From contig VGSH01000010.1 of NCBI GenBank assembly GCA_016875025.1, positions 1 to 48,488 on the forward strand: a DNA stretch of 48,488 bases. Direction: 5' to 3'. Below the pieces are notes generated by a model that did not search any database, was not told the DNA's origin, and worked only from the letters and a program-made list of their open reading frames with translations. Source of the stretch: Deltaproteobacteria bacterium. GTDB lineage: Bacteria > Desulfobacterota > WTBG01 > CAIYCZ01 > CAIRTM01. Below are positions 4,055 through 47,449 of this stretch, piece after piece; position 1 is the stretch's first letter; every line of letters starts with the position of its first letter. Position numbers and translations under genes: made by a program.

Positions 4055-4060
4055 GTATGC

Positions 4061-9936: not shown

Positions 9937-10121
9937 TTTATCGTGCAAACATCACTCCAATCGGGCGTGCACATACGACCCGACTGGGACAGGCAAAATA
10001 TGGTATGGGCCGGATACGTCAAATCGGCCGGATGTTTTTTAAAAAATTGTCAGCAATGGAATAAAATCCCCTGCTTTGCGACTAACAGCAGTGTTGCGTA
10101 ATTATTTAATGCGGAGGATGC

Positions 10122-27929: not shown

Positions 27930-29739
27930 GCTCATGAAAGAAACCATCCGGAAACTCTGTGTGCTTCTCACCCCGCGTGAGCGGCTGCTTGCCTGCCTGC
28001 TGTGTGCGGGCGCGTTCGTTTCGGCCCTTTTTGATGTTGCCGGTGTCGTATCTATCCTGCCCTTTATCGCGGTTGTGGCCAACCCTGACAGTATCGAAAC
28101 CAACCGCTGGCTGAACATGGCCTACACCGGCTTTGGCTTTGAAAGTTCGAACCGGTTTCTGGTGTTTCTGGGAACAGCGGTGCTGGTCCTGCTGATCGTG
28201 AATAATCTGTTCAGGGCGGTGTTTGCCTGGCTGCAGATCCGGTTTGTCTTCGGCCGCGAGCTCTCGCTTGCGCGTCGGCTGCTTGCGCGCTATCTTGCCC
28301 AGCCCTACATTTTTTTCCTCAACCGCAACACGGCCGAGCTCAGCCGCAATATTCTCTCCGAGGTCGCAACCGTCATCCGCGCCGTTTTGGCGCCCTGCAT
28401 TTCAATCGTGGAAAAATCGGTTTCAGCCCTGTTTATCCTAGCGCTTCTGCTGGCAATCGATGCCCGGCTGTCCATGATTACGGTGCTGATACTTGGCTGC
28501 GTATACGGCGGTCTGTATCTGTTCATCCGCACGCGTCTCGCGGTCTGGGGCAAAGAGCGGGTGCGTGAAAATTTGAACCGCTTCAAACTTTCCAGAGAGG
28601 CCCTGAGCGGCGTGAAGGACTTGAAAATACTCGGCCGCGAGCGCCATTTTTTAAACCGCTTCACCGAAAGCTCCGCAACCTATGCCCGCTGCGCTGCGCG
28701 CAGCAGCATCCTTTCTCTGCTGCCCTCCTATGCGCTTGAGGTAGTAGCTTTTGGGGGAATTCTCTGCATTGTGCTGTACTTCCTGGCGCTCAGGGAAAAT
28801 CTTGCGCAGCTGCTGCCTGTGCTGGCCCTGTTCGTGTTCGCAGCCAAGCGCATTATGCCGGCCCTGCAGAAGATATTCGCCGACATCGCCACCCTTCGCT
28901 ATAGCGCAGCAACCCTTGATGTTGTGCATGCCGACTTTGTCGCCACAGCGGCCTGCCCGGACATACCTGCCGGCGCTGAAAACCGCCTGACGCTGCACAA
29001 ATCGCTTTCCCTGCAGGGCATATCCTTTTGCTATCCGGACCGCGATGAGCCTGTGATCAGTGCGCTGAGCCTTGACATTCCGGCCAATACAACCGTCGCC
29101 TTTGTGGGTTCAACCGGCTCAGGCAAAAGCACCCTGATCGATATTATTATCGGCCTGCTCACGCCTGACTCCGGGCGCATGTGTGTGGACGGCTCCACCC
29201 TTGATGAAACAAACCGCTGCAGCTGGCAGCGCAACCTGGGATACGTGCCCCAGCATATCTACCTCAGCGATGACACGGTTGCCCGCAACATCGCCTTCGG
29301 CCTGTCTGACGGCCGCATCGACATGGAGCGCGTCAGGCAGGCGGCCCGCGTGGCAAACATCGCCGAATTTATCGAATCAGAACTCCCCGCAGGCTACGAT
29401 ACCTTGATCGGCGAGCACGGCGTGCGTCTGAGCGGCGGGCAGCGCCAGAGAATCGGCATCGCGCGCTCTCTCTACCATGACCCGGACGTGCTCGTTCTCG
29501 ATGAAGCCACCAGCGCGCTTGACAACATAACCGAAGAGGCGGTGATGGACAGTATCCGGGCCCTTGCCCGGCGCAAGACCATTATCATGATCGCCCACCG
29601 CATCACCACGGTTAAAGACTGCGACATGATTTATTTGATGGAAAACGGAAAAATTACAGCCCATGGTACCTACAGCGCCCTGATGGATTCATCCGAGACC
29701 TTCCGTGCCATGTCGCGCGAAAAAGACCGGTCTTTGTAA
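27928..29739 (+). CDS. ABC exporter, fused membrane and ATPase domains (MsbA/PglK type)
   Basis: This 603-residue half-transporter has an N-terminal six-helix membrane domain (to about 310) and a C-terminal nucleotide-binding domain with Walker A GSTGSGKST near 393, signature LSGGQRQR near 500, Walker B VLVLDEATSALD near 521 and a switch histidine in IAHRIT. The early segment FDVAGVVSILPFIAVVANP is typical of the PglK/oligosaccharide-flippase branch, so a lipid-linked sugar or LPS-type lipid is a reasonable substrate guess. GTG 27928 and ATG 27934 are both possible starts; neither has a strong ribosome-binding site. Confidence 0.9.
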   Translation: MLMKETIRKLCVLLTPRERLLACLLCAGAFVSALFDVAGVVSILPFIAVVANPDSIETNRWLNMAYTGFGFESSNRFLVFLGTAVLVLLIVNNLFRAVFAWLQIRFVFGRELSLARRLLARYLAQPYIFFLNRNTAELSRNILSEVATVIRAVLAPCISIVEKSVSALFILALLLAIDARLSMITVLILGCVYGGLYLFIRTRLAVWGKERVRENLNRFKLSREALSGVKDLKILGRERHFLNRFTESSATYARCAARSSILSLLPSYALEVVAFGGILCIVLYFLALRENLAQLLPVLALFVFAAKRIMPALQKIFADIATLRYSAATLDVVHADFVATAACPDIPAGAENRLTLHKSLSLQGISFCYPDRDEPVISALSLDIPANTTVAFVGSTGSGKSTLIDIIIGLLTPDSGRMCVDGSTLDETNRCSWQRNLGYVPQHIYLSDDTVARNIAFGLSDGRIDMERVRQAARVANIAEFIESELPAGYDTLIGEHGVRLSGGQRQRIGIARSLYHDPDVLVLDEATSALDNITEEAVMDSIRALARRKTIIMIAHRITTVKDCDMIYLMENGKITAHGTYSALMDSSETFRAMSREKDRSL

Positions 29740-29782
29740 CGCGCTTTTTAAGCCCTGCCCCTGGTTTTTTCCCTGTTCCCGG

Positions 29783-29811
29783 TTGACATAAGCAGAATGA
29801 TCAATTACAAT
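29783..29811 (+). promoter_or_regulatory. Strong sigma-70-type promoter of the tetR gene
   Basis: TTGACA at 29783-29788 and TACAAT at 29806-29811 are 17 bp apart. A CCGG inverted repeat begins 7 bp after the -10 box, over the expected transcript start. Confidence 0.75.
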
Positions 29812-29817
29812 TTAAAA

Positions 29818-29835
29818 AAACCGGCCAGCCGGTTT
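29818..29835. promoter_or_regulatory. Operator-like inverted repeat upstream of tetR
   Basis: AAACCGG-CCAG-CCGGTTT is a perfect 7-bp inverted repeat located at the expected transcription start of the TetR gene. This is the usual place for autorepression. The half site CCGGTTT recurs upstream of the first structural gene (30484-30490). Confidence 0.6.
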
Positions 29836-29846
29836 GGATTTTTACT

Positions 29847-30446
29847 ATGTCGGATAGATGTATGAAGATCAAAGACACAAGAAAAGAAAACATTTTTTCA
29901 GCAGCCCTGCAATGCTTTATCGAAAAGGGCTACGCTGAATCAAGCATCAGCATGATCGCCTCACGGGCGGGAATCAGCAAAGGAGGTCTGTACCACTATT
30001 TTCCAACGAAGCGGGAACTGTTTCTCGGGCTGTTTCTCTACCGCGTAAATCAATATTCCGAGCAGCTGAGAGACCAGCTGCACAATGAAAAAAGTCCGGA
30101 TAAACGCCTTAAAATGCTGGTGCGCGAGGCCGGCAGCCTGCTGGTGCATAATGAAGCTTTTTACCGGTTCTGCCTTGAGTTTCTCTCAATCGGCGTGCGC
30201 GATGCGGAAATACGTTCCGTTATGACGGATTTTTATAAAGAAACGGTGGGAATTTTTGCCCACATTGTCAACGAGGGCATCGACACCGGCTTATTTCAGC
30301 CGATCGACTCAAAAAAACTGGCCCGCATGCTCTACTTCACCGTGATGGGCGCATTTTTCACCTTTTTTTCAGTTGACCCGGATTTTACCTTTTCAGAGCA
30401 GTTCTCATTTCAGATTAATTTTATGCTGAAAGCATTGCAAGGCTGA
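29847..30446 (+). CDS. TetR-family transcriptional regulator of the tetrapyrrole-like cluster
   Basis: The 199-residue regulator has an N-terminal helix-turn-helix (SSISMIASRAGISKGGLYHYFPTKRELF, residues 31-58) and a helical C-terminal ligand domain. It is the first gene of the 30-40 kb cluster, and a stretch of 75 bp separates it from the heme/flavin fusion gene. Matching CCGG palindromes before both genes suggest it represses itself and the cluster. The ligand would probably be a substrate or intermediate of the pathway; this is inference. Confidence 0.9.
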   Translation: MSDRCMKIKDTRKENIFSAALQCFIEKGYAESSISMIASRAGISKGGLYHYFPTKRELFLGLFLYRVNQYSEQLRDQLHNEKSPDKRLKMLVREAGSLLVHNEAFYRFCLEFLSIGVRDAEIRSVMTDFYKETVGIFAHIVNEGIDTGLFQPIDSKKLARMLYFTVMGAFFTFFSVDPDFTFSEQFSFQINFMLKALQG

Positions 30447-30474
30447 GCGCATATATTTTTTGCACAAAAAACCG

Positions 30475-30488
30475 ACCGGACGTCCGGT
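30475..30488. promoter_or_regulatory. Second operator-like palindrome, before the first cluster gene
   Basis: ACCGGACGTCCGGT is a perfect 14-bp palindrome, extended by AAACCG on the left and TTT on the right, so it contains the same CCGGTTT half site as the site before tetR. A TACTAT -10-like hexamer follows at 30490-30495, but I see no convincing -35. Confidence 0.55.
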
Positions 30489-30521
30489 TTACTATGCACA
30501 CCCTACAACAGGAGAAGCATC

Positions 30522-31346
30522 ATGCACAAGAAAAAGACAGTTTCAATGGTATTCATGGCAGCGCTTCTGGTCAGCCTGGGCCTTGCCGACATTTCAACAG
30601 CGCAAAAGGCAGACTCCCTCGACAAAAAAGCCGAAGAGATTGCTGCTGCCGCAGCTGTAACCTCTAATCATCCCGAGATCCCGGAGGGCGTCTCCTGCAA
30701 CGACTGCCATACCATGACGATCGACGCCAATACCACGGCCACCCAGGTATGGCTGGGCGGTGAGTACCTCGGCAAGGCCGAGGGCGAAGGCCGCATGAGC
30801 GATGAGCAGCTCTGGGCGGAAATCAACAAGCTTCTCGGCGGCGGCAAGGCAGGCACCAAAACCTATGTTCTGGCAACCAGCATGAACAACCGGCCCCTTT
30901 CCACAACGGCCGAGTGGACCTTTGATCCCGGCAGAAGAATGCTGTACGGGGTTCATGAGATGAACACGGAAAAACTTGCCCATATCAAGGCCAATCCCTT
31001 TGTAAGCCTGAACTGGCACGACGAGTATGCAGGCATTGATGGCCCCTATCGCTGCTGCCAGATCAAAGGGCGCTGCGAACTGCTTGACGGCCAGCATCCG
31101 GATTTTGAAAAGATACTGATCGAGTTCGCACCCTACGAGGATGCGGCCACGCGTATGATGCCGCAAAACCCAACGCCTGAGCAGCGCGAGGAAGTGCTCA
31201 CGCGGGTGCGCGAGACGTTTAAAAAGCGCTTTCTCATGAGCCGCATCACCATCGACCGGATCACCATCGTCAACAAGGATTTCATCTCGAAGGGCTTCAG
31301 GAATGTCCAGCGCTGGGAGCGCGCTAACACCGGCGAAAAACCATAA
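30522..31346 (+). CDS. Exported c-type heme protein fused to a flavin split-barrel (PNPOx-like) domain
   Basis: The 274-residue protein has a signal peptide (positively charged start, hydrophobic core 8-22, AQ-type cleavage near 28). A single CxxCH heme-attachment motif, CNDCH, is at 59-63. A pyridoxamine-5'-phosphate-oxidase-like split-barrel domain follows from about 85 (YVLATSMNNRPLSTTAEWTFDPGRRMLYGVHEMN, then ANPFVSLNWHD). This points to a periplasmic redox protein with covalent heme and perhaps a flavin or tetrapyrrole in the barrel. HugZ-type heme-degrading proteins share the split-barrel fold. A GGAG ribosome-binding site precedes the ATG. The fusion is uncommon and I know of no defined function. 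Confidence 0.8.
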   Translation: MHKKKTVSMVFMAALLVSLGLADISTAQKADSLDKKAEEIAAAAAVTSNHPEIPEGVSCNDCHTMTIDANTTATQVWLGGEYLGKAEGEGRMSDEQLWAEINKLLGGGKAGTKTYVLATSMNNRPLSTTAEWTFDPGRRMLYGVHEMNTEKLAHIKANPFVSLNWHDEYAGIDGPYRCCQIKGRCELLDGQHPDFEKILIEFAPYEDAATRMMPQNPTPEQREEVLTRVRETFKKRFLMSRITIDRITIVNKDFISKGFRNVQRWERANTGEKP

Positions 31347-31406
31347 CCTGCCGGTGGCTCCGCATAGCTTTTGTGCATTAACGCAAACAAACCAGAGGGA
31401 GAAACC

Positions 31407-32210
31407 ATGAAGACAGTTGTTGTGACCGGCAGTTCAAAAGGCATAGGCCTGGGCCTTGCCAATGAGTTTTTAAAAAAAGGCTGCAATGTCGTTCTCAGCA
31501 GTTTCGCAAAAGATGAAATGATGCATGAATATGAGAAGGCCTGCGCCATCTATGGGAAAAAACGCGTGGCCGCGCAGGCCTGCGATGTCAGCAGTCTTGG
31601 TCAGCTCAGGCAGCTCTGGGAGACCGCGCAGAGCGCGTTTGGCCAAGTCGATATCTGGATGAACAATGCCGGCATCGCAAATACCACACGGCCCATCTGG
31701 GAGCTGGAAACACGTGAAATCCCGCGCGTAGTCAGCACCAACCTGACCGGCGTCATCTACGGAACGCAGGTCGCGCTGCAGGGCATGCTCAAGCAGGGCA
31801 GCGGCCAGATATACAACTCGGAAGGCTTCGGCAGCGACGACATGGTGCTGAGGGGCCTGAGCGTCTACGGTGCTACCAAGCGGGCCGGCCGCTATTTGAC
31901 CGAGTCAATGGCAGCAGAGCTGGAAGGCACGCCGGTACAGATCGGGACAATCAGCCCTGGAATCGTATTAACGGATTTTCTTGTGGACGACGTGCGTAAA
32001 ATGGCCCCTGAGCAGCGCGAACAGGCCAAGGCCGTCTACAATATCCTGGCAGACAGCGTTGAGGAGGTCACGCCGTGGCTGGTGGAGGAAGTGTTGAAAA
32101 ACACCGAAAACGGAAAACGAATTATCTGGCTCAACGAAGAGCGGACAAACCGGTACATGAATGACGAGGCCCGCCTGGGTCGCGATGTCTTCAGCCAGTT
32201 TGGCCTCTAA
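31407..32210 (+). CDS. Short-chain dehydrogenase/reductase 1, NYC1/NOL-like
   Basis: This classical SDR of 267 residues has the nucleotide motif TGSSKGIG near residue 7, NNAG near 86 and catalytic YGATK near 151. In place of the usual NxSS the active-site strand reads IYNSEGFGSDD. An N-x-(D/E)-G-x-GS pattern at this position is characteristic of chlorophyll b reductases NYC1 and NOL, which reduce a formyl group on a tetrapyrrole. The start is the ATG at 31407 behind an AGAGGGAG site. It is tandem with a paralogue of identical length 23 bp downstream. NAD(P)H-dependent carbonyl or alcohol chemistry is secure; the substrate is not. Confidence 0.85.
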   Translation: MKTVVVTGSSKGIGLGLANEFLKKGCNVVLSSFAKDEMMHEYEKACAIYGKKRVAAQACDVSSLGQLRQLWETAQSAFGQVDIWMNNAGIANTTRPIWELETREIPRVVSTNLTGVIYGTQVALQGMLKQGSGQIYNSEGFGSDDMVLRGLSVYGATKRAGRYLTESMAAELEGTPVQIGTISPGIVLTDFLVDDVRKMAPEQREQAKAVYNILADSVEEVTPWLVEEVLKNTENGKRIIWLNEERTNRYMNDEARLGRDVFSQFGL

Positions 32211-32233
32211 CCCATAGAATCAGGAGAATCACA

Positions 32234-33037
32234 ATGATATCTGCCGTCATAACCGGAAGCACAAAAGGCATCGGGCTCGGCCTGGCACAGGAGCTGCTCA
32301 AGCGCGGCTGTGCCGTGGCGATCAGCTCGCGTTCACGCAACAGCGTTGACACAACCGTTGAAGTCCTCGGCAAGGAGTTCGGAGCGGACAAGGTTATCGG
32401 CCGCACCTGTGACGTGACCGACCCCGCGCAGGTACAGGCGCTCTGGGATGCGGCCGCCGGGGCCTTCGGAAAAGTTGACATCTGGATCAATAATGCGGGC
32501 ATATCCCTTTCAAAAATCCTGCTCCGGGATCTGCCTCCAGAGCTGATAGCCCCGGTAGTAAACACAAATATGGTCGGCCTGATGTATGGATGCCAGGTCG
32601 CAGCGTGCGGCATGCTCAAGCAGGGCAGCGGCAGCATTTTTAATCTTGAAGGCCATGGCAGCAATGACATGCTCGTGCCCGGCCTGAGCATTTACGGCGC
32701 TACCAAGCGCGGCGTGCGCTATTTTACCGAAGCGCTCGCAGAAGAGTTGAAAACCACGCCGGTAAAAATCGGGGGCATGGGACCGGGCATCGTCATAACC
32801 GATCTGGTCCTGGAAGACCTGCGGCGCATGAGTCCGGATGATCGCGAACAGTCCAAAATCCTCATCAACATTCTGGCCGACACGGTCGACACCGTGGCTC
32901 CATTCCTGGTTGATGAGATGCTCAAGGAACCTGAAAACGGCGCAAGCATCCAGTGGATAACATCGGAGAAGGCCAATGCCCGCTTTGAGGATCCGGTCTA
33001 CCTTGAGCGCGACCTGCTGAGCAGTCACGGGATATAA
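32234..33037 (+). CDS. Short-chain dehydrogenase/reductase 2, NYC1/NOL-like
   Basis: The 267-residue SDR is a clear tandem paralogue of the previous gene: TGSTKGIG, NNAG, IFNLEGHGSND in the active-site strand and YGATKRGVRYFTEALAEEL with the Tyr/Lys pair. Both retain the N-x-E-G-x-GS pattern. An AGGAG ribosome-binding site precedes the ATG. Two copies may reduce two positions, work in sequence or form a heterodimer. Gene order suggests co-transcription with the whole cluster. Confidence 0.85.
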   Translation: MISAVITGSTKGIGLGLAQELLKRGCAVAISSRSRNSVDTTVEVLGKEFGADKVIGRTCDVTDPAQVQALWDAAAGAFGKVDIWINNAGISLSKILLRDLPPELIAPVVNTNMVGLMYGCQVAACGMLKQGSGSIFNLEGHGSNDMLVPGLSIYGATKRGVRYFTEALAEELKTTPVKIGGMGPGIVITDLVLEDLRRMSPDDREQSKILINILADTVDTVAPFLVDEMLKEPENGASIQWITSEKANARFEDPVYLERDLLSSHGI

Positions 33038-33103
33038 TACTTTTTTATTTCTTTAATGAGCCGGACAGCAGCCCTGCCGACCCACACCACAACGGAGTTA
33101 ATC

Positions 33104-33727
33104 ATGTACATTATTGGTTTTTCAGGCAGTCCCCGCCTGAACGGAATTTGTAGCCGTCTTATGCAGTCGGCTCTCGACGGCGCCCTGCAGCAGGGCGCGG
33201 ACGTGAAGCGCTACGACCTGATCAAGCTGGACATCAAGCATTGCCTTGGCTGCTGCCAGTGTATCTTTGACGATCCGCAACTGCCGGTCGGCCGCTGCCC
33301 GCTCAAGGATGACATGGCCGCCGTGCTGGAAGATTACATGCTCGCCGACGGCTATATTTTTGCGTGCCCGGTTTACCACGGCACAGTAACGGCATTGATG
33401 AAAAAATTCATCGAACGAAAGTTCGGCCTGTCCTGGCGTGCACCCGAGGCGGCGGGAAAGCTGCCCGAGTCCCGCGTGCCGGCGGATTTCAAAAAAAAGG
33501 CCATTATGATCGCTACCGGCAACTCGCCTGATGAATTCGTGGAAGTCATGGGTGATCCCTGCTTCGAGGTGATGAGTTCGGACTGGATGGTGGAGCAGGT
33601 TGAAACCGTGGGGAAAATGTATGTCGGCGGTGTGGAGACCCTGTCCCCGACCGATACCGAGGATCGTTTGAAAAAATCCTTTGATGCCGGTAGCCACCTG
33701 GTGGAGGCCATCCGAAAAGACCTTTAG
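33104..33727 (+). CDS. NAD(P)H-dependent FMN reductase / flavodoxin-fold protein
   Basis: The 207-residue flavodoxin-like protein has the FMN-phosphate loop GFSGSPRLNGICSRL near residue 4 and the CLGCCQCIFDD...GRCPLKDDM cysteine segment typical of the FMN-reductase/iron-sulfur-flavoprotein branch. ACPVYHGTVTALMKKFIER near 85 is also typical. Four cysteines (C-x2-C-x2-C, then C ten residues on) could hold an Fe-S cluster as in Isf proteins, but this is not assured. The start is ATG 33104 after CGGAG; an upstream extension from 33056 is rejected. It could supply electrons or reduced flavin to the other cluster enzymes. It is not UbiX. Confidence 0.82.
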   Translation: MYIIGFSGSPRLNGICSRLMQSALDGALQQGADVKRYDLIKLDIKHCLGCCQCIFDDPQLPVGRCPLKDDMAAVLEDYMLADGYIFACPVYHGTVTALMKKFIERKFGLSWRAPEAAGKLPESRVPADFKKKAIMIATGNSPDEFVEVMGDPCFEVMSSDWMVEQVETVGKMYVGGVETLSPTDTEDRLKKSFDAGSHLVEAIRKDL

Positions 33728-33813
33728 CGGCATATGCATTTTTATAATATCTGCCGGCACAGTGCCGCTGACTCAAAAAACAATCGCGCACCATTCAGCC
33801 TTTGGAGAAGAAC

Positions 33814-34383
33814 ATGGCCTATGTGACCCTGCCTAAAGTAACACCGCAGCAGAAAATACTTTTCGAACGTTTCGGCCTCCCGTTGATTGAAACCATGGAG
33901 GTTGACCACTTTGAACGTGAAGTTGCGAACTATCTCGATGCGCACAATGTTTTGAGCCTTTCGACCTGCCGCGACAACACGCCGCGCTGCACCACGCTGG
34001 AATATTTCAACAACGGGCTCACTGTGTATCTGTTCTCGGAAGGCGGGTGGAAGATCACCAACCTGAAGGCCAATCCCGCGGTGTCCTTCACTATCCACGA
34101 CCCCTATGATTCGGGAACGGATTATTTCGGCGCTTCGGGCCTGCAGGTCTGGGGCAGGGCCTCCCTTTTCAAACGCAAGGACGACCCGGAGCAGGCGGCC
34201 CTGATCCAGTCATACTATCGCCACTCGGAAGGGCTGAAGCGCCAGGGCCTGTATGAGGCCATCCAGGCGCTCAACTTTAATGTCATCACGATCGAGCCGG
34301 TTAAAATCTCCTATCTTGATCTGCGCAAGGGATTCCGCAGTTTTGTCTGGAAAAAAGATGCCTCTGCTGAGGACGAAGCATGA
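33814..34383 (+). CDS. Flavin split-barrel (PNPOx-like) protein 2
   Basis: The 189-residue cytoplasmic protein has the split-barrel pattern: EVANYLDAHNVLSLSTCRDNTPRCTTLEYFNNGLTVYLFSEGG, then KITNLKANPAVSFTIHDPYDS and GLQVWGRASLF. The same order occurs in FMN-binding and heme- or F420-binding family members; the cofactor cannot be read off. Start ATG 33814 follows GGAGAAG. Its stop overlaps the UbiD start (ATGA), so the two are translationally coupled and may work together. It is related to the product of the gene at 38740. Confidence 0.78.
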   Translation: MAYVTLPKVTPQQKILFERFGLPLIETMEVDHFEREVANYLDAHNVLSLSTCRDNTPRCTTLEYFNNGLTVYLFSEGGWKITNLKANPAVSFTIHDPYDSGTDYFGASGLQVWGRASLFKRKDDPEQAALIQSYYRHSEGLKRQGLYEAIQALNFNVITIEPVKISYLDLRKGFRSFVWKKDASAEDEA

Positions 34384-35876
34384 CCACGAAGAAAAAAAAT
34401 AAATTCCCCTTTGACTCTCTGAGAGACTATGCCGCAGCGCTCAAGGAGCAAGGCCGTTTTATTGAAATCGAGGAGATGGACCAGGACCGCTATGAGATGA
34501 CGGCGTTTTCCTACCGGCTGGAAGACCGCTTGCAGGACACCGCGCCGGCGTTTCTGGTCAGAAGGACAAAAATCAACGGCCGGACCTATGACATGCCGGT
34601 GGTCGGCAATCTTTTCAACGGTTTCGGTTCCGTTGCCCAATGTTTCGGTGCTCCGTTGGATGAGATGACTGAGAGCCGCTCCGAGATGCACGCCCTGGCT
34701 TCCCGCAAGATTCTAAACTGCCTCGGGGATGATTTCCGCTGGAAAACAATCGAGCCCGTTGTTATCGATAAAGCCCAGGCCGCCTGCAAGCAAGTTATTT
34801 ACACGGGGGAGGATGTTGATATTTTCCGTTTCCCCTGGATAAAAAACAATCCCGCGGATGGGGGCAGGTTCGTCAGTTCCGGCTGCGCGGTAATGCAGGA
34901 CCCGGAACTCGGCCGCAATGTGGGCACGTACCGCCTGCATGTCAAGGGGCCCCGGAAGGTCGGCATCTGCCTGACACAGCCCAGTCACGGGTTCCAGTTC
35001 GTTATGCGGGCGGCCGAGCGCGGCCTGGAACGTATCCCGGTGTCGGTTGCCGTGGGCGTCGATCCCCTGACCTTCATGATGAGCGGCACCCGGCTGGCCG
35101 ATCTCGGTGAGGACGAATTCGCCATTGCCGGTGGATTTCGCGGCAAGCCGGTTGAACTGGTAAAGAGCGAGACCAGCGACATTCTGGTCCCCGCCCATGC
35201 AGAGATCATCATTGAGGGAGAAATTCCCATTATGGAGGCCGAGGAAGACGGTCCTTACGGCGAGCTGTTCGGCTATATCGGTCACAAGCACCAGGCCTTT
35301 TATATCGATATCAAGGCTATCACCTGCAGGACCAGCCCCTGGGTCTACAATATATGGCCCGGCATCGGCGGAGCCTATTTGACCCTGCCCTGGGACGTTT
35401 CACATTTTGCGCGGTTGAAAAAAATAATGCGCAACCTCGTCAAGCTGTATACGCCCGTTGAAACGCCCTCCATAGTCATAATCAGCATTGATAAAAAACT
35501 TCCGGGCGAGGGCATCGAGGCCGGTATGATGGTTCTGGGCTACCGCATGGTGGGGTTCAGTAAAAAAATCGTTATCGTGGTTGACCGCGACATTGACCCG
35601 ACCGATACGGCGCGCGTAATGCATGCGGTCGGCACGCGCTGGCAGCCCCATCCGGCAAGTCTGCTGGTGAAGCAGTCGATCCATATTCCGGTCGAACCAA
35701 GCTGCCGCGAAATGTTTTTGAGCAGCAAGATCGTAATAGATGCCACCCGTCAGCTTTCCTCCGAAGGAGGGCCGAACATGTTCCCGCTCGACAACCGCAC
35801 GGTTGTCGAGGAGCGCGCCCCGGAAGCCTTCGAGATCGTTGACAGCAAATGGGCTGAATATTTCAATGACAAATGA
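34380..35876 (+). CDS. UbiD-family prenylated-FMN-dependent decarboxylase
   Basis: UbiD enzymes reversibly decarboxylate aromatic or alpha,beta-unsaturated acids using prenylated FMN from UbiX. The 498-residue product has the cofactor/substrate segment GRNVGTYRLHV with N180 and R185, and EEDGPYGELFGY near 288-299, in which E295 matches the catalytic Glu282 of fungal Fdc1. The position of Fdc1 Glu277 is Asp290 here. It overlaps the upstream split-barrel gene by 4 bp. No ubiX is in the window. In this setting it could remove a carboxyl from a tetrapyrrole side chain or from an aromatic acid; this is inference. Confidence 0.92.
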   Translation: MTTKKKNKFPFDSLRDYAAALKEQGRFIEIEEMDQDRYEMTAFSYRLEDRLQDTAPAFLVRRTKINGRTYDMPVVGNLFNGFGSVAQCFGAPLDEMTESRSEMHALASRKILNCLGDDFRWKTIEPVVIDKAQAACKQVIYTGEDVDIFRFPWIKNNPADGGRFVSSGCAVMQDPELGRNVGTYRLHVKGPRKVGICLTQPSHGFQFVMRAAERGLERIPVSVAVGVDPLTFMMSGTRLADLGEDEFAIAGGFRGKPVELVKSETSDILVPAHAEIIIEGEIPIMEAEEDGPYGELFGYIGHKHQAFYIDIKAITCRTSPWVYNIWPGIGGAYLTLPWDVSHFARLKKIMRNLVKLYTPVETPSIVIISIDKKLPGEGIEAGMMVLGYRMVGFSKKIVIVVDRDIDPTDTARVMHAVGTRWQPHPASLLVKQSIHIPVEPSCREMFLSSKIVIDATRQLSSEGGPNMFPLDNRTVVEERAPEAFEIVDSKWAEYFNDK

Positions 35877-35921
35877 TGCGCCGGCACATGCTGCCGTCGC
35901 ACGCGCTGAAAGGGAGGCGAC

Positions 35922-36731
35922 ATGTTTATAACAATACTGAAGTATGCATTTTTGGCCCTGCTGGGCATCGTGGTGCTTGCCGTGCTCGTGGCGGTGCCGT
36001 TTCTCATCAAAGCCCGCAAGGAAGGCGACCGCCTGTTCGCCCGCTATGCCTCCTATACCGACACCGAGCTGGTTCAGCGCTTTGATATGCGCGATTTTCC
36101 GGTTAAGCCGGAGTACAAAAAACTCCATCCTGCCAAGTTCCTCAAGATGATGAAATATGTGGTGTCAAGCCGGCAAGCCGATCGCCTCGCGCGGGTGAAC
36201 TCCCTTGACGTGACCATGTTGTACTTTATGAAAATGTACACAATGATGATCCGGCCCGACTACGGCTACAACCTGCCGGTTCTATCAGTCGATTTCATCT
36301 TCATCGGCGGTATGCGTGTCTATGTTATCGAGATCATCGACCCTGCCAAAATCGACGACCCAAACAAGGAACGCTGCTATAGTGAGGTGAAAAAATGGGC
36401 GGACCGGGTAGCGCAGTTCAAGCAGTCCAAAGTAAGTGAATGGTTTTACGATTTCATCACTGATTCCAGCATCCACATTTCCACGAACCGCACGGATGAC
36501 GAAGTGCTTTTTGAAATATACAAAACATATCTCAACAGCTATCTCAATATGGTCGAACGGGCTGAAAAAGTGACCCCGGAGCAGAGCAGGCAGCTGGAAG
36601 AGGGCCTTGAACTGTTTGTCACGACCCTGCTTGATAAAGGCGGGCCCGCGGTTAATGTCTTCAAGACCTTTCTGGGTCCCGAAAAGCAGCGCGATTATAT
36701 TCGGACCGTTATGTTCGGCCTTGAGAAGTAG
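35922..36731 (+). CDS. Membrane-anchored protein resembling ferredoxin-dependent bilin reductases (PcyA/HY2 family)
   Basis: The 269-residue product has one N-terminal membrane helix (about 5-28). The rest follows the bilin-reductase pattern as I recall it from PcyA. PDYGYNLPVLSVDFIF (112-127) aligns with the PLYGLPLFGCD stretch, so D124 matches catalytic Asp105, and VYVIEIIDPA matches the following strand. SEWFYDFITDSSIHI then TDDEVLF aligns with the W-x-x-IFS...FIRP...EERF segment, and FKTFLGPEKQRDYIRTVMFGL (247-267) matches the C-terminal FG-x-x-W...Y-x-x-x-LFD signature. A counterpart of PcyA His88 is not evident. A membrane anchor is unusual for the family. GGGAGG precedes the ATG. Confidence 0.65.
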   Translation: MFITILKYAFLALLGIVVLAVLVAVPFLIKARKEGDRLFARYASYTDTELVQRFDMRDFPVKPEYKKLHPAKFLKMMKYVVSSRQADRLARVNSLDVTMLYFMKMYTMMIRPDYGYNLPVLSVDFIFIGGMRVYVIEIIDPAKIDDPNKERCYSEVKKWADRVAQFKQSKVSEWFYDFITDSSIHISTNRTDDEVLFEIYKTYLNSYLNMVERAEKVTPEQSRQLEEGLELFVTTLLDKGGPAVNVFKTFLGPEKQRDYIRTVMFGLEK

Positions 36732-36778
36732 CAACTCAACCCGGTTAGTTCTGATAACGTATAGTCAGGAGAAAAAGC

Positions 36779-37525
36779 ATGAACGTAAAAAACGATTTTT
36801 CATTCCCCCCGCCCGGGCAGCTGGACACCATCAGGGCCTTTTATGCCGCAATAAACGGCAATGACTCTTTTGATCCGAAAACAGAGCAGGCATCGGGCGT
36901 ATGGAGCGCTGAAGTGCACTGCTCGCGCGGGCCAATACTTGAAAAGGCAGGCATGGCCATGGTGGAAATGTGCGGCGGATCGGTTGATGGCGCTTCGGCC
37001 GACATCAGGCTTCTGCAAACCCTTGCCTGGCCTGTATCAGCTGACGTGCCGGGTCTTATCATCATGGCCAGTACAAGCAAAATGGAAGGGGGCGATGTCA
37101 TCATTACGTTTTATGCGGACCTGATCGCCCAGAACGCCGCAGCAGCAGAAAGTGACAAAGAGCCCTTTACCACTGCCATGCGAACTTCGTGTGAAAGACA
37201 CGGCCGGGACCTGGCCGAGTATCAGGCTTTTTTAACAGGCCGGGGAATGCTTGGCGCCTGCGCCGCTGAGTGCGGCATGCTGTATTTTTTCGAGGAAAGC
37301 GATGCTGCGTTTTTGGATGATTGCATCAAAGCCGCGCTGCAGGCCTACCGCCTTATTCTCGACAGTGCCGGTTCCCGGGCCGGGGGAGACAAAGGCCGCA
37401 TGGCTGAATGCCGCGCAACTATCAGGGACTGGATGGTCACTCAGGACTACGGTGTCAAGGTGGCGCGCCAGAACGGCATACCTGATGAGCTTATGGGAAT
37501 TTACGGATTTCCTCCCGGGGTCTAA
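36779..37525 (+). CDS. Divergent HemF-like protein (coproporphyrinogen III oxidase fold), catalytic residues not conserved
   Basis: The 248-residue protein resembles oxygen-dependent coproporphyrinogen oxidase. GPILEKAGMAMVEMCGG (51-67) parallels the GGVFEQAGVNFSHVHG segment of E. coli HemF. RTSCERHGRDLAEYQAF (135-151) parallels its ARDLCLPFGEDVYPRYK. ECGMLYFFEESDAAFLDDC (164-182) parallels RGIGGLFFDDL...FDRC. The HPHNP histidine is replaced (MASTSK, 96-101) and the RRGRYVEFNL stretch is not kept, so it probably does not perform the O2-dependent HemF reaction. It may bind a tetrapyrrole for another purpose. An AGGAG site precedes the ATG. Confidence 0.6.
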   Translation: MNVKNDFSFPPPGQLDTIRAFYAAINGNDSFDPKTEQASGVWSAEVHCSRGPILEKAGMAMVEMCGGSVDGASADIRLLQTLAWPVSADVPGLIIMASTSKMEGGDVIITFYADLIAQNAAAAESDKEPFTTAMRTSCERHGRDLAEYQAFLTGRGMLGACAAECGMLYFFEESDAAFLDDCIKAALQAYRLILDSAGSRAGGDKGRMAECRATIRDWMVTQDYGVKVARQNGIPDELMGIYGFPPGV

Positions 37526-37588
37526 CGCGCATACATGGCACGCGCCGGCCCCAAAAAAAAACGACTAGAATTTGGAGAAACGACAAGC

Positions 37589-38614
37589 ATGCATATTCAG
37601 AAAAAAGGTCTTATCGTCTACGATTCGGTGTACGGGTCAACGGTTGAAGTCGCCTACTGGATAAAAAACATTATCGGCATGGATCAGTGCCTTGATGTGA
37701 AGCCACTGACACAGGTCATAACTGTTGCGCCCTATGACTATGTCATCATCGGCAGCGCAACGCGCATGGAAAAGCCCCTCAAGGGCATTTATGCCTTCGT
37801 GGAAACCCACAGGCAGCGGCTGGCCCGTAAACAGGTCTGCTACTTTCTGCTGTGCGGCGACTGCGATGAAACCATGGTACTGAATGTGCCGGGCAAGCCG
37901 CCGCACCTTATCGCCGGCAGGAACTATTTGCAGGACATACAAAAAAAATATCCCGAAATACGCCCTGTGGTCATCGGCGCCTTCGGCGGCCGGCAGGTAA
38001 TGCCCCGGCTGCAGAAAAAAGAAGCTCTGACCCTGTGGCTGCTGGAGAAACTGGCAAAAGAAGGGACTCCCTGGAAAGGCCTTGACATCTGGGAGTCGCT
38101 GATCGCCGAGCGCGTTGAGCTGTTCGCAAACGAGGTCCGTGAAAAAGTCCTTGGCGCCCCGCCCAATACAGAGATTGAGCGCTTTCGCTCCTGTTGGCAG
38201 TCGCTGCAGCCGGGAAGCCTCACTGACAGCGCAAAGAAAAAATACACGCCCAAGCCCTGTTTCGCGCATGAGGAAATGGCCAAACAGTATTTTACCCGCA
38301 GCAGGATACACGGTGACCTTGAGCTTGGCATACAGCTTTTGAAACAGTGGGCAACTGCCTGCGGCCTTGAGCTGAAAGAGCAGTCCCGAACGTTTTTTAA
38401 TATCTATTACCATGCTGTGAAATCCTACAGCGGCCGCAGCCTCACCATACACATTGTCGCTGCCACGCTGCCCGAAGACCCCGGCAACCTGCATGTTTCC
38501 TTCCGCTGCTATGCGAAAAAAGCAGTCCGGGGCGGTGCCCAAATAGACATCGCCGCTGCAGAAGAAATACTGTGGGCCGACGGCAGAAAAGCTGAGCCCG
38601 CGCCCGCCCGGTAG
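37589..38614 (+). CDS. HemG-like flavodoxin-domain protein with C-terminal domain of unknown function
   Basis: From the ATG at 37589 (GGAG site) the protein has 341 residues. Residues 1 to about 165 form a flavodoxin domain like menaquinone-dependent protoporphyrinogen oxidase HemG: GLIVYDSVYGSTVEVAYWI binds FMN phosphate, then YDYVIIGSATRMEKPLKGIYAFVETHRQRLARKQ and VVIGAFGGRQVMPRL. Residues from about 185 to 341 form an extra domain I do not recognise, with CFAHEEMAKQYFTRSRIHGDLELGIQLLKQWA and a beta-rich tail. It could be an electron carrier or an oxidoreductase for a tetrapyrrole. It is the last gene before a strong terminator-like hairpin. Confidence 0.68.
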   Translation: MHIQKKGLIVYDSVYGSTVEVAYWIKNIIGMDQCLDVKPLTQVITVAPYDYVIIGSATRMEKPLKGIYAFVETHRQRLARKQVCYFLLCGDCDETMVLNVPGKPPHLIAGRNYLQDIQKKYPEIRPVVIGAFGGRQVMPRLQKKEALTLWLLEKLAKEGTPWKGLDIWESLIAERVELFANEVREKVLGAPPNTEIERFRSCWQSLQPGSLTDSAKKKYTPKPCFAHEEMAKQYFTRSRIHGDLELGIQLLKQWATACGLELKEQSRTFFNIYYHAVKSYSGRSLTIHIVAATLPEDPGNLHVSFRCYAKKAVRGGAQIDIAAAEEILWADGRKAEPAPAR

Positions 38615-38631
38615 CACTCCTTCTCACACAT

Positions 38632-38686
38632 AGTGGGCAGATTTATTTTTTGCGCTTAGACGGAAAAATAAATCTGCCCACTTTTG
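38632..38686 (+). terminator. 19-bp perfect hairpin, probable terminator
   Basis: AGTGGGCAGATTTATTTTT (38632-38650) and its exact complement at 38664-38682 enclose a 13-base loop and are followed by TTTT. It ends the main cluster transcript after the HemG-like gene. Because the inner stem is A/T rich on both arms, it could also work from the other side. Confidence 0.7.
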
Positions 38687-38739
38687 TTCTTGGCCTTAAA
38701 GAAAGAGTAGTATATACAACTTGCCGAGGGAGGTGCATT

Positions 38740-39297
38740 ATGGCCATGCATGAATTAACTGATGCTGAACGTGAAAAGATGCTGGGCGAGCTCTTCCGCC
38801 TGCTCAAGATAACCCGGTGGCACCCGGACCGCGCAGAGCTCGAGCGGGAAATAATCGACTATCTCGCCAAGAACCAGCCCTTAACGCTTGCCACCTGCAC
38901 CGCGGACGGCAACCCGCACGTTTCCGTGGTGGACTATGTCAATGACGGGCTCGATCTGTATATTTTCAGCGAAGGCGGCCAGAAATTTAAAAACCTCGCC
39001 CATAATAAAAATGTCGCGGTCGGGATCGGCACTTCGGCCCGCACGATCACCTCGGTGCGCGGCCTCAACCTCTGGGGCACAGCCGATGTGTTTAATGACG
39101 GCACGGCCGAGTTCAAGCGGGCATTTGCCCTGTTTAAGCCCCTGCTTGATGATTTCGAGCAGAAGACCGGGATGCCGGCCTCGTTCCCGCCGGGCATGGC
39201 GCGCATCATCCGGATCACGCCGCACCGGATGGTTTATTTTCACTACCGCAAAGGAATTGCCCATGCCTGCTGGGATCGGGAAGAGCAAGGCGCCTGA
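38740..39297 (+). CDS. Flavin split-barrel (PNPOx-like) protein 3
   Basis: The 185-residue protein has LEREIIDYLAKNQPLTLATCTADGNPHVSVVDYVNDGLDLYIFSEGG, then KFKNLAHNKNVAVGIGTS and GLNLWGTADVF, the same order as the product at 33814, to which it is paralogous. Start ATG 38740 has an excellent GAGGGAGG site; the longer frame from 38650 runs through the terminator hairpin and is rejected. It lies after the terminator, so it probably has its own promoter or depends on read-through. The C terminus RMVYFHYRKGIAHACWD parallels LDLRKGFRSFVWKKD of the other copy. Confidence 0.8.
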   Translation: MAMHELTDAEREKMLGELFRLLKITRWHPDRAELEREIIDYLAKNQPLTLATCTADGNPHVSVVDYVNDGLDLYIFSEGGQKFKNLAHNKNVAVGIGTSARTITSVRGLNLWGTADVFNDGTAEFKRAFALFKPLLDDFEQKTGMPASFPPGMARIIRITPHRMVYFHYRKGIAHACWDREEQGA

Positions 39298-39353
39298 ATC
39301 GCGCGACCGGCAGGAACGCTTTTTCTTGTGCCTTTTTTCAAAAGGAAGAAAAG

Positions 39354-39386
39354 CCGTTCGTGGTGAGCTTGTCGAACCACGAACGG
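39354..39386. repeat. Perfect hairpin repeat A
   Basis: CCGTTCGTGGT (39354-39364) and ACCACGAACGG (39376-39386) form eleven pairs around GAGCTTGTCGA. It is a TTCGACAAGCTCAC-class dispersed repeat, in the spacer 39298-39540 between two split-barrel genes. Confidence 0.7.
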
Positions 39387-39405
39387 GTCTGCGGTACGCT
39401 CCGTT

Positions 39406-39443
39406 GTCCGTTCTACCCTTCGACAGGCTCAGGGTGAACGGAC
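39406..39443. repeat. Hairpin repeat B
   Basis: GTCCGTTC-t-ACCC and GGGT-g-AACGGAC pair around TTCGACAGGCTCA (one mismatch). It is the same class as repeat A, and the same TTCGACAGGCTCA word occurs in the palindromic element at 9473-9637. The two hairpins side by side could weaken transcription from either direction. Confidence 0.65.
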
Positions 39444-39540
39444 GATATTTTTTAGGCTATGCGATTTTTGGAAAATGCTATAGACGCACCCGGGCAGTAT
39501 ACTACCACCCTGTTGCAAACATCACGTGAAAGGATTGACC

Positions 39541-40023
39541 ATGCAGGTTGAACTCAAAACCATGTCGCAGGAACAGATTAATGAATTCTTAAATTCGCAG
39601 AAGGTCGGGCTGCTGTCGCTTTCTGACGGAAAAAGCGCCTATGCAGTGCCGCTGGGATACTCCTTTGACGGCAAGGACATTTACCTGACCATCGCCAACA
39701 AGGGCCGCAAGCTGGCCTATATCAAGGCCTGCCGCAACGTCTGCTTTACGGTCTACTGGCTGCAGGACAACTTCGGGGTCAAAACCGGAATGTCGTATAA
39801 ATCGGTTATCTGTGACGGCGTGCTGGAGCAGATCTCCGAGCCCGAGGCAATTACCAGGGTAATACGCAATGCAGAAAAGCACCTCGGTTTTCCGGAAGGA
39901 ACCTGGAATCATCTGCTTGAAATGACCTTGAAGGATCCGGCCAATTCCGGTTTCTGGAAGATCAACGTTACCCGTATCGGCAGTCAGATGGTTAATGACG
40001 TTAAAGAAGGGGCCGGGGCGTAG
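39541..40023 (+). CDS. Flavin split-barrel (PNPOx-like) protein 4
   Basis: The 160-residue protein belongs to a shorter branch of the split-barrel family (nitroimidazole-resistance/NimA-like): EQINEFLNSQKVGLLSLSDGKSAYAVPLGYSFDGKDIYLTIANKGRKLAYIKACRNVCFTVYW, then YKSVICDGVLEQI. Start ATG 39541 follows AAAGGA; a TTG-type extension at 39526 is not needed. It is separated from the previous gene by two hairpin repeats. FMN binding is likely; the substrate is unknown. It closes the co-directional run that begins with the TetR gene. Confidence 0.78.
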   Translation: MQVELKTMSQEQINEFLNSQKVGLLSLSDGKSAYAVPLGYSFDGKDIYLTIANKGRKLAYIKACRNVCFTVYWLQDNFGVKTGMSYKSVICDGVLEQISEPEAITRVIRNAEKHLGFPEGTWNHLLEMTLKDPANSGFWKINVTRIGSQMVNDVKEGAGA

Positions 40024-40127
40024 AAGCAGGGAGTTAGGCGCGCAGGGTAAATCCAATATTTGGCTGATCTCACCCTGAACACCGAACCCCATACTCCGGG
40101 CTGCCATGGCAGACCCTCTCACGTTTT

Positions 40128-41306
40128 TTATTCGCCGAGGTTCGCTATAGCGACTGCAACGGTTTCAGCCACCAGTCGGTGGCCGGCTGGTGACCAGTGC
40201 GCGTCGCGCTTTGAAAACAGGAATTCCGGGTCAGGATGAGCACGGAAAGCAGGGGTTGGGTCTATATAGGGTATATCAAGCTGCGCGCAGATCTCAGCGA
40301 GCCTGCTTGACGGACGGTCCCAGTCCAGCCCATCCGCATCAGGGTCGTAGCCCGCACTTTTCATTTCCGCTAAGAATATGTCTCGGTCAGTGCCTTCCCG
40401 TGTCGCCACGTAGACGACACCAAGCCTGCCGCCGGTCTTTACCATGGTGTCTCTGGCCCTGCTCAGCAGCAGTCTCACCGCTGTCCACGCACGATCCATT
40501 TCGGGCGTTGGGGGAGCATATATCTCGGGCAAAGAGAATACCATTTTGCCGGACGCTTCTTTTTTTTCGGTGCGCCGTGCAGCCTTGGGCTTTTGCGCCC
40601 TGACAATATCGCGGTTGCGCCGCGTCTTGAGCTTGTGATCGAGAAGCTCAAGGCTGTAGCGGGCGAATCCATACGCCCTGCTGTTGGCCTGGAACCAGAG
40701 TTTTACGGGCGACTTGAAGTTGTTCTGCACAGGTCTGTTTGCAATGTACAGCACATCATTGTCAGCGAGCTGCGCCACAGGGCGCCTGAGCTCCTTGTCG
40801 TCGAAGTTGTCCTCAAGGTCATTCCAGCAAAAGAAGATAAGCGCGAGATCCGGATCATAGCGAAGGCCCTCAAGCTCCAGGCGTAAAACTTCCTGCACGG
40901 TGCTGTACCCCTTGACGCCGAAGTTAATGGTTTCGGCAGCAGGCAGCAGGCCCTGCAGAACCGTCGAGACCATCTCGTGGTTTTCCACGCCATGCCCCCA
41001 TGCAAAGCTGTCCCCGAGAACCAGGATACGCCGTGTTCCGGGGGGCTTGACATAGTCTTTTTCAGCGTCACGCAGTCCTTTGCTGTTGCACACCATGCGC
41101 ACATCAAAGGCCCCCGGGAGGAAAAAACGCTCATTACTGTTCGGGCTGCACACCCAGCCGACATCGCGGTCATTGATATAAAGACCACCTTGAGATATCG
41201 TCATGCTCCCGACACCCGTCAGCCTGATAACCAGTTCACACATCAGCAGGGCAACGATTACGCTGACAAACGTCAGCGCACAGCACGCCATGTACTTCTT
41301 TATCAT
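40128..41306 (-). CDS. Membrane-anchored SGNH/GDSL-fold hydrolase or acyltransferase-like protein
   Basis: The 392-residue protein has an N-terminal signal/anchor helix (about 5-27), so the catalytic part faces the periplasm. The SGNH fold is visible: block I RRILVLGDSFAWGHGVE with the Ser near 95, block II glycine in INFGVKGYST, block III FFCWNDLEDNF with the Asn, and the C-terminal DAHWSPAGH with the Asp-His pair. Proteins of this kind modify exopolysaccharide or lipids. ATG 41306 follows GAAGGAG at good spacing; an upstream extension to 41348 is rejected. It is a single gene, with its own predicted promoter. Confidence 0.8.
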   Translation of the reverse strand: MIKKYMACCALTFVSVIVALLMCELVIRLTGVGSMTISQGGLYINDRDVGWVCSPNSNERFFLPGAFDVRMVCNSKGLRDAEKDYVKPPGTRRILVLGDSFAWGHGVENHEMVSTVLQGLLPAAETINFGVKGYSTVQEVLRLELEGLRYDPDLALIFFCWNDLEDNFDDKELRRPVAQLADNDVLYIANRPVQNNFKSPVKLWFQANSRAYGFARYSLELLDHKLKTRRNRDIVRAQKPKAARRTEKKEASGKMVFSLPEIYAPPTPEMDRAWTAVRLLLSRARDTMVKTGGRLGVVYVATREGTDRDIFLAEMKSAGYDPDADGLDWDRPSSRLAEICAQLDIPYIDPTPAFRAHPDPEFLFSKRDAHWSPAGHRLVAETVAVAIANLGE

Positions 41307-42913: not shown

Positions 42914-42914
42914 A

Positions 42915-46082: not shown

Positions 46083-46091
46083 GCGCCCCTC

Positions 46092-47249: not shown

Positions 47250-47313
47250 GATGACCTCGATGCTGTGGGTTATTCTAAAAAACAATGTATGTTTTGGGCG
47301 GCGCTTCACCGGC

Positions 47314-47367
47314 TCAGACTGCGTCTGAACTGCAGGCCGGATGCCATCCCGAAGGGATGGTTCCGGC
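47314..47367 (-). promoter_or_regulatory. Hairpin-rich leader of the RND operon
   Basis: Between tetR and the adaptor gene are a TCAGAC-tgc-GTCTGA inverted repeat (47314-47328) and a long hairpin: GCCGGATGCCATCCC (47336-47350) pairs with GGGATGGTTCCGGC (47354-47367) with small mismatches around a GAA loop. They may attenuate read-through from tetR, or the shorter palindrome may be a regulator site. No clear promoter was found for the pump genes here. Confidence 0.45.
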
Positions 47368-47449
47368 ACGATGCGCTGCAGCAAGCTGCCGGACACGCTG
47401 CGCTTAGTCAGGCCTACAGCTACAGCTGATTTTTTTAATCCTGCTGCGA

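Follow-up and report, generated by a model that had tools for sequence, protein, structure and literature searches.

A genomic island of bilin-reductase-like, HemF-like and HemG-like genes in an apparently anaerobic deltaproteobacterium and its possible role in tetrapyrrole remodelling

We have analyzed a stretch of DNA of 48,488 nt (contig VGSH01000010.1, assembly GCA_016875025.1 of a Deltaproteobacteria bacterium), referred to below as the window, and describe a 9.8-kb block in it, at approximately 29740–39519, which is an island present here and absent from a sister species. It combines homologues of ferredoxin-dependent bilin reductases (FDBRs), coproporphyrinogen oxidase (CPOX, HemF) and HemG-type flavodoxins with a TetR-family regulator and several oxidoreductases of more general families. 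Characterised FDBR and CPOX members act on tetrapyrroles, and genes of both families are multiplied throughout most of the analyzed genomes of the class and coupled in some operons.

Results

Composition and boundaries of the island

All genes of the run at 29847–39297 are located on the plus strand. The first one encodes a TetR-family regulator (29847–30446; PF00440, 63.3 bits), and is followed by cPNPOx1 (30522–31346), which combines a leader-like N-terminus, a CNDCH heme c site and a split barrel. The barrel is matched by PNPOx_N below threshold (26.2 bits, cut-off 28.1). The CxxCH motif, which an earlier sequence-only reading of this DNA had taken as a covalent heme site, is kept in four of four homologues (E <= 1e-20). 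The protein is probably periplasmic; leader-like N-termini, here and in FlavG relatives (see below), were judged by eye. Two short-chain dehydrogenases/reductases (SDRs; 31407–32210 and 32234–33037; PF00106, 136.8 and 137.5 bits) are paralogues (E = 3e-85) that match generic SDR models, the nearest solved relatives of the second one being ketoreductases; the NYC1/NOL-type active site ascribed to both in the sequence-only reading is a putative resemblance. Next come a homologue of NADPH-dependent FMN reductases (33104–33727; PF03358, 64.4 bits), a PNPOx split-barrel protein (33814–34383; PF01243, 46.7 bits), a UbiD-family decarboxylase (34380–35876; PF01977, 182.4 bits; TIGR00148, 248 bits, cut-off 244.85), an FDBR homologue with an N-terminal hydrophobic helix (35922–36731; PF05996, 55.4 bits, 8.6e-15, cut-off 31), a divergent HemF-like protein (36779–37525; its family profile matches a solved CPOX, 4.8e-19), FlavG, in which a HemG-type Flavodoxin_5 domain is joined to a C-terminal domain of its own (37589–38614; PF12724, 63.1 bits), and the last PNPOx split-barrel protein (38740–39297; PF01243, 49.9 bits). 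The latter has close homologues near CPOX-like genes in the genomes G004, G005 and G008; its identification as HugZ/HutZ was ruled out (25 bits, compared to the cut-offs of 240 and 225).

Profile searches bear out the TetR, FMN reductase, UbiD and both SDR assignments made from the letters, and the bilin-reductase-like and HemG-like products are matched directly by PF05996 and PF12724. The HemF-like product has no direct Pfam match and is reached through its family, so none of the three products at 35922, 36779 and 37589 is placed in an unrelated family. The claim of four split barrels in one island is rejected: PNPOx-type profiles do match at 33814, 38740 and 39541, but the last of these genes (39541–40023, plus strand; PF12900, Pyridox_ox_2, 64.6 bits) flanks the island.

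The boundary follows from the sister species G001, where DAGK, RuvX, ABC exporter and PNPOx4 genes are consecutive and constitute an empty site. The exporter of G001 is 69% identical to that of the window, its split-barrel protein is 82% identical to the product of 39541–40023, and the gene of the latter begins about 25 bp past the end of the exporter gene. As it adjoins the exporter there, we consider the gene at 39541 a flank and place the island end near 39519. The G+C content of the block is 54.2%, compared to 58.5% in the remaining window, and is below that of all 40 overlapping windows of the same size in the left flank (57.3–61.5%). The mean third-position G+C, on the contrary, is similar in the block and in flanking genes (0.669 and 0.679), and therefore the island likely came from within the same lineage. 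At its right edge (39298–39540) two hairpin-forming stretches resemble dispersed repeats.

Regulatory features

Ahead of the tetR gene there is a sigma-70-like promoter, TTGACA-17-TACAAT (29783–29811, plus strand), with 11 of 12 consensus positions. It is the best among ten sites found at 29600–40400; shuffled sequences contain 6.9 sites on average, and the number of sites as such is not above chance. A palindrome, AAACCGGCCAGCCGGTTT (29818–29835), overlies the presumed transcription start and is a candidate, and likely, TetR operator; the second one, AAACCGACCGGACGTCCGGTTT (30469–30490), was read in the sequence between tetR and the next gene. The promoter together with the two related palindromes fits TetR autorepression. 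Scanning with the palindrome consensus yields four matches with 1.1 expected, a number reached in four of 100 shuffles and hence not clearly above chance, and the second palindrome is absent among these four matches.

A perfect 19-bp inverted repeat with a 13-nt loop (38632–38682, arms 38632–38650 and 38664–38682) separates the flavodoxin gene from the gene at 38740 and is a probable terminator or attenuator. This hairpin makes a single transcript for the whole run doubtful, and the last PNPOx gene may be transcribed separately. Of the single regulon suggested initially, the CCGG palindromes at two intergenic places are real, but their consensus does not clearly exceed chance and the hairpin may divide the run.

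The FDBR homologue and its relatives

The profile built from ten members of the window FDBR subfamily matches the solved structures of PUBS (2.5e-13) and PcyA (6.4e-10), which makes the FDBR assignment of 35922–36731 firm at the level of sequence. Residue D124 aligns with the catalytic Asp of solved PcyA (Asp105), while L95 and T107 occupy the positions of PcyA Glu76 and His88, so the Glu76/His88 pair of PcyA is not found. Asp at the Asp105 position and Thr at the His88 position are present in ten of ten members of the window subfamily. Among 54 aligned FDBR homologues, Asp is found at the catalytic position in 28, and in the others this position is occupied by Glu, Asn, Thr or a different residue. 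The tree of these proteins is midpoint-rooted and contains partial canonical members, hence we claim no branching order. The FDBR profile built without CPOX-like members gives no hits common to the FDBR and CPOX-like families, and sequence homology between them is not claimed.

Being devoid of a cofactor, FDBRs rely on a carrier that supplies electrons one at a time. In the own genome (that of the window), a gene on contig C2 encodes a 4Fe-4S ferredoxin–FDBR fusion of 327 aa (L038:8048-9031), followed by an aldehyde ferredoxin oxidoreductase (AOR) gene; FDBR homologues of 326–331 aa, near the length of this fusion, occur in G003, G004 and G005. On contig C78 (L044:5859-7583) an FDBR homologue adjoins a methyltransferase that is matched best, among the NCBIfam models, by BchU, at 85.8 bits, below the cut-off of 276. 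Contig C35 (L040:5450-10505) contains in a row a gene for a Flavin_Reduct/PCP_red-like protein (both matches sub-threshold), an Old Yellow Enzyme (OYE) resembling the long form of BilR, an NmrA-like gene and an FDBR homologue. The best NCBIfam model of this OYE is the long-form bilirubin reductase, and BaiCD scores 371; its identification as BilR was rejected at 384 of 750 bits, and the HGDR motif was not found in L040 by a back-translated search. An NmrA gene adjoining an FDBR homologue recurs in six genomes, own included. At seven loci (L059, L068, L069, L076, L104, L125, L126) a run contains a tandem pair of FDBR homologues, in many cases accompanied by an SDR; such pairs possibly represent heteromeric or sequential reductases. 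One FDBR homologue (G007:C171:1700-2368) carries four in-frame stops and is apparently a decayed copy.

The CPOX-like family

The product of 36779–37525 has no match in Pfam, in NCBIfam or in the Protein Data Bank (PDB) searched with the single sequence. At the same time, PF01218 (Coprogen_oxidas) matches eight of the 11 aligned family members, at best with 6.4e-28, and the profile of this alignment matches the human CPOX structure 2aex (4.8e-19), so the HemF assignment holds at the family level only. The family has invariant Asp, Pro and Glu positions, including D114, which is Asp in 11 of 11 members. As PF01218 misses the own-genome copy, Pfam counts of CPOX-like genes given below are lower bounds.

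FlavG and its pairing with FDBR

The AF2 model of FlavG has a mean pLDDT of 72.5. Nearly all of the Foldseek matches shown are flavodoxin-type proteins, with FldH (8g64) ranked 17, and among these matches no fold was identified for the C-terminal domain. FlavG accompanies the window-type FDBR in ten of 11 named loci, the exception being L086; these loci come from ten metagenome-assembled genomes (MAGs) labelled Thermodesulfobacteriota, Deltaproteobacteria or Proteobacteria. The two genes are separated by the CPOX-like gene in the window and by an FDBR-like gene and a small open reading frame (ORF) in L079, and at several loci the order is GG-reductase-like – FlavG – FDBR. The FlavG–FDBR pair, together with the natural ferredoxin–FDBR fusion, supports flavodoxin- or ferredoxin-driven FDBR homologues. 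The hydrophobic helix of the FDBR homologue and the leader-like N-termini of cPNPOx1 and of most FlavG relatives suggest that some of the reactions may take place in the periplasm.

Neighborhoods and modules

Neighborhoods were compared for loci containing 82 FDBR homologues and 28 CPOX-like genes, which constitute 98 distinct co-directional runs. FDBR homologues are present in five of the 28 CPOX-like runs (the window, L061, L063, L065 and L067), compared to about 0.3 expected from rounded densities (150 FDBR genes in 13 genomes of 3400 genes). In L065, the FDBR homologue with the top Pfam score (129.6 bits) shares a run with a CPOX-like protein of 97.4 bits, and with DUF2284, Fe-S and AOR-like proteins. 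Across 119 immediate neighbors of FDBR and CPOX-like genes, with counts covering the top 25 of 98 Pfam families, Flavodoxin_5 ranks first (9), followed by FMN_red (7), NAD_binding_10/NmrA (6), SDR (4), FAD-binding reductases (4), alpha/beta hydrolases (3), PNPOx_N (3) and AOR (2); the 25 NCBIfam families shown for the neighbors are nearly all overlapping SDR models.

CPOX-like, FMN reductase and PNPOx genes are found close together in four genomes, own included. In G004, G005 and G008, close homologues of the FMN reductase and of the last PNPOx protein lie at most about 5 kb from CPOX-like relatives; two more distant CPOX-like relatives (37–39% identity) have no such close homologues within this distance. 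The full gene set of the island is present at no other locus examined. Hence the expectation that the set travels together proves right for modules, and not for one fixed set.

Multiplication in the class

The genome set comprised 58 draft assemblies, 17 from the class and 41 from elsewhere in the phylum. PF05996 has 6–17 matches in each of 13 of the 17 class genomes and none in the other four, with a total of 145 at E <= 0.001, some of them under the cut-off, and it has no match in the 41 other genomes of the phylum. In the own genome all nine matches exceed the cut-off, and the matched stretch of one of them contains an in-frame stop. PF01218 has 1–5 matches in 11 of 13 FDBR-bearing genomes (33 in total, 30 over the cut-off) and none in 45 genomes without FDBR; of the 13, only the sister species and the own genome lack a match, the copy of the latter being missed by the model. 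For the co-occurrence of the two families, the Fisher test yields 3e-10 in the whole set and 0.006 within the class, these values being not corrected for shared ancestry.

Some isolate names suggest lakes or springs (LaPlata, Alinen sediments, Lac Pavin, Zod), others being uninformative. In the literature searched, which does not include the majority of subscription papers and preprints, no title or beginning of an abstract mentions that FDBR or CPOX genes are multiplied in this lineage.

Absent pathways and the route to heme

Heme oxygenase (PF01126) has no match in 20 genomes. The same holds for PF00502, the phycobiliprotein-type globin family used as a proxy for the globins called BBAG, generic globins being not searched. 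No protein in the 20 genomes exceeds the 400-bit cut-off of HutW/ChuW (TIGR04107); the best one scores 205.7, and such hits are taken as putative HemN/HemW-type proteins. Profile scans of the island products give no globin, V4R or heme oxygenase match. The absence of known bilin entry points, initially noticed for the gene cluster, is thus supported over 20 genomes, and both the canonical bilin pathway and the anaerobilin pathway have been rejected.

Heme-copper oxidase (PF00115) has no match in the 13 FDBR-bearing genomes, own included, with cytochrome bd not searched, and is matched in three of the 20 genomes overall. The heme b synthase AhbD of the own genome is just over the cut-off (501.2 of 500 bits), and synthesis of heme b through the siroheme route, for which CPOX is not needed, is therefore expected in this genome. 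Ordinary heme biosynthesis has been rejected as the role of the island on this account.

Other features of the window

Beside the island, at 41489–48094 on the minus strand, there are efflux-type genes and a second TetR-like regulator; OEP has been identified by profile, the RND transporter and the fusion protein by eye. Three large consecutive ORFs at 812–9470 (1080, 1197 and 608 aa) resemble RecC, RecB and RecD by eye, and are followed by a selenocysteine tRNA gene (9844–9937).

Discussion

We estimate at roughly one half the probability that the island, probably under TetR control, is a module by which an anaerobe reductively remodels a hydrophobic pigment of the tetrapyrrole type without the use of O2. 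This reading is based on the joint multiplication of two families with members known to act on tetrapyrroles, their coupling in some operons and the presence of the HemG-type flavodoxin, as well as on the BchU-like methyltransferase and the bilirubin-reductase-like OYE at other FDBR loci of the own genome, both below the respective cut-offs. In such a module, FlavG would hand single electrons to the FDBR homologue, and the latter, having no cofactor of its own, would reduce a double bond or a side chain of the bound pigment. The CPOX-like protein would bind the same type of substrate and work without O2, UbiD would act as a decarboxylase, carbonyl and flavin chemistry would fall to the SDRs and split-barrel proteins, and the split-barrel protein with heme c would act at the periplasmic face. 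The direction would be breakdown or detoxification rather than synthesis. Of the tetrapyrrole-converting pathway proposed in the sequence-only reading, the families, their co-occurrence as modules and the absent bilin entry points are upheld, and the tetrapyrrole as the substrate class is a tentative reading.

A number of observations weigh against this reading. The FDBR homologues are very divergent, and the catalytic position is not Asp in 26 of 54 aligned homologues, including five of the nine from the own genome. The CPOX-like family retains the Asp and not its partner Arg (we presume the roles of catalytic Asp282 and Arg262 in human CPOX): the aligned position is not Arg in the profile, with the numbering being inferred. 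The AF2 model of the window CPOX-like protein, built from a two-row alignment, has a pLDDT of 39.3. The window-type FDBR of the sister species (L086) has no FlavG next to it, and neither has the FDBR at L039, the second locus of this type in the own genome; the leader-like N-terminus seen in most FlavG relatives is absent from the window protein. AhbD exceeds the cut-off in five of 20 genomes and in two of 13 FDBR-bearing ones (G000 and G002; G003 scores 497.8), so the argument from the heme route is not extendable to other relatives. Further, the genomes are drafts, and the absences are therefore provisional. The generic partners (SDR, UbiD, OYE, GG-reductase family, FAD reductase and a transporter set considered next) would fit a non-tetrapyrrole hydrophobic substrate equally well.

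The transporter set is found at L039, where the window-type FDBR operon is divergent to genes of an RND transporter of the MMPL type, a YCF48-like protein and a DUF1302 protein. The same order is repeated at L073, L075, L082 and L087, and RND and YCF48-like genes are found at L074, as seen from the sequence starts only. The set resembles AmeABCD of Castellaniella, a HAE3-type RND set that, in the accessible part of its description, is tied to apolar monoterpenes (PMC6394551). One of the Ame proteins is compared there to assembly factors of photosystem II, and DUF1302 and DUF1329 are each mentioned once (PMC6394551). This likeness points to a substrate that would be hydrophobic and pass through the envelope.

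The foremost alternative is one that we hold to be a real possibility, if a tentative one: the FDBR/CPOX fold could have been repurposed in this class as a cofactor-free reductase scaffold, driven by ferredoxin or flavodoxin, that acts on hydrophobic conjugated molecules of other kinds, such as polyaromatics, quinones and terpenoid or steroid-like compounds, one of which would be degraded or detoxified by the island. The nine own-genome FDBRs have a median identity of 17.2%, compared to 23.5% for five solved canonical FDBRs represented by partial sequences, which agrees with such a change of function, as do the varied residues at the catalytic Asp position in almost half of the homologues. The ferredoxin–FDBR fusion preceding an AOR gene, the SDR with GlcD/GlcF, NmrA and GG-reductase-family neighbors and the Ame-like set beside an FDBR operon point the same way, as do UbiD and SDRs, which are typical of aromatic metabolism. 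A repurposed scaffold, however, would leave unexpected both the joint multiplication of two tetrapyrrole families and their sharing of runs, and sits poorly with the HemG-type flavodoxin as the commonest neighbor family and with the Asp retained in ten of ten members of the window subfamily.

The remaining explanations fare worse. An assembly by chance, with genes of different pathways sharing a TetR promoter, would account for the full set being present at no other locus examined and for the lack of the island in the sister species, but seems improbable to us, as sub-modules with close homologues recur across genera. Canonical bilin biosynthesis, in which heme oxygenase would supply biliverdin and its reduction would yield a phytobilin to serve a photoreceptor or a bilin-binding globin, agrees with the pre-3-like Thr/Asp pattern of the FDBR homologue; given the lack of PF01126 and PF00502 matches in 20 genomes, of globin, V4R and heme oxygenase in the island, and the 6–17 FDBR copies per genome, we consider it very unlikely. 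The adjoining HemF-type and HemG-type domains could also belong to ordinary heme biosynthesis, placed beside unrelated oxidoreductases, which is hardly credible with AhbD at 501.2 bits, a window CPOX-like protein missed by HemF models and no PF00115 match in the own genome.

Returning to tetrapyrrole remodelling, we would tentatively extend it to the class, which is Desulfobacterota-type, apparently anaerobic and represented by MAGs only. It may possess a new O2-independent branch of tetrapyrrole metabolism, where FDBR and CPOX homologues dismantle or remodel imported chlorophyll-, bilin- or heme-derived pigments and are driven by flavodoxin, ferredoxin fusions and AOR-linked carriers. If true, FDBR and CPOX are not tied to oxygen, and photosynthetic FDBRs form one branch of a larger anaerobic superfamily. 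FDBRs, RCCR and CPOX have been proposed to have arisen with oxygen, in the part of that study available to us (PMC10151467), and genomes of this class present a direct test case for the proposal. The multiplication of FDBR and CPOX-like genes in genomes without a canonical heme oxygenase or a heme-copper oxidase match may also bear on the origin of bilin reductases. Were the substrate a sedimentary pigment, the genes would be candidates for anoxic chlorophyll or heme breakdown; titles and abstract beginnings of a few papers on anaerobic chlorophyll degradation in lake sediment name no such genes.

Comparison with known systems

HemF is an O2-dependent enzyme of heme synthesis. The CPOX-like family shares with it the profile similarity at the family level and the invariant Asp, Pro and Glu positions, but occurs in multiple copies in apparent anaerobes, in some cases in FDBR runs, and does not keep the partner Arg.

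Two known systems link tetrapyrrole reduction to flavodoxin-like proteins. BilR reduces bilirubin, and some of its operons contain the flavodoxin-like BilS, according to the accessible sections of the report (PMC10769871). A reductase paired with a flavodoxin-like protein is thus common to both cases, but BilR is an OYE and not an FDBR. The flavodoxins HmuF and FldH of Fusobacterium reduce anaerobilin anaerobically, as stated in the part of the paper available to us (PMC10404700). They share with FlavG the flavodoxin fold and the anaerobic host, and serve tetrapyrrole reduction, although FldH has only rank 17 among the structural matches of FlavG. HmuF itself acts on anaerobilin provided by the radical SAM enzyme HmuW (PMC10404700), whereas FlavG accompanies an FDBR homologue and has its own C-terminal domain.

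The pre-PcyA clusters (pre-1, pre-2 and pre-3) of heterotrophic bacteria also represent FDBR homologues outside photosynthetic organisms; the string "Desulf" does not occur in the main text of the paper describing them (PMC10151467). The window FDBR shows the Thr/Asp pattern of the pre-3 group, one tested member of which is active and reduces biliverdin, in the accessible sections of that paper. According to the same sections, BBAG globins occur in these clusters along with V4R and Fe-S proteins, a B12-binding protein being the alternative, and heme oxygenase is typical, if not universal, for pre-1 and pre-3 (PMC10151467); none of these have been matched in the island. The lineage studied here, on the contrary, has many FDBR paralogues per genome, and their neighbors are flavodoxin, CPOX-like, SDR, UbiD and split-barrel proteins.

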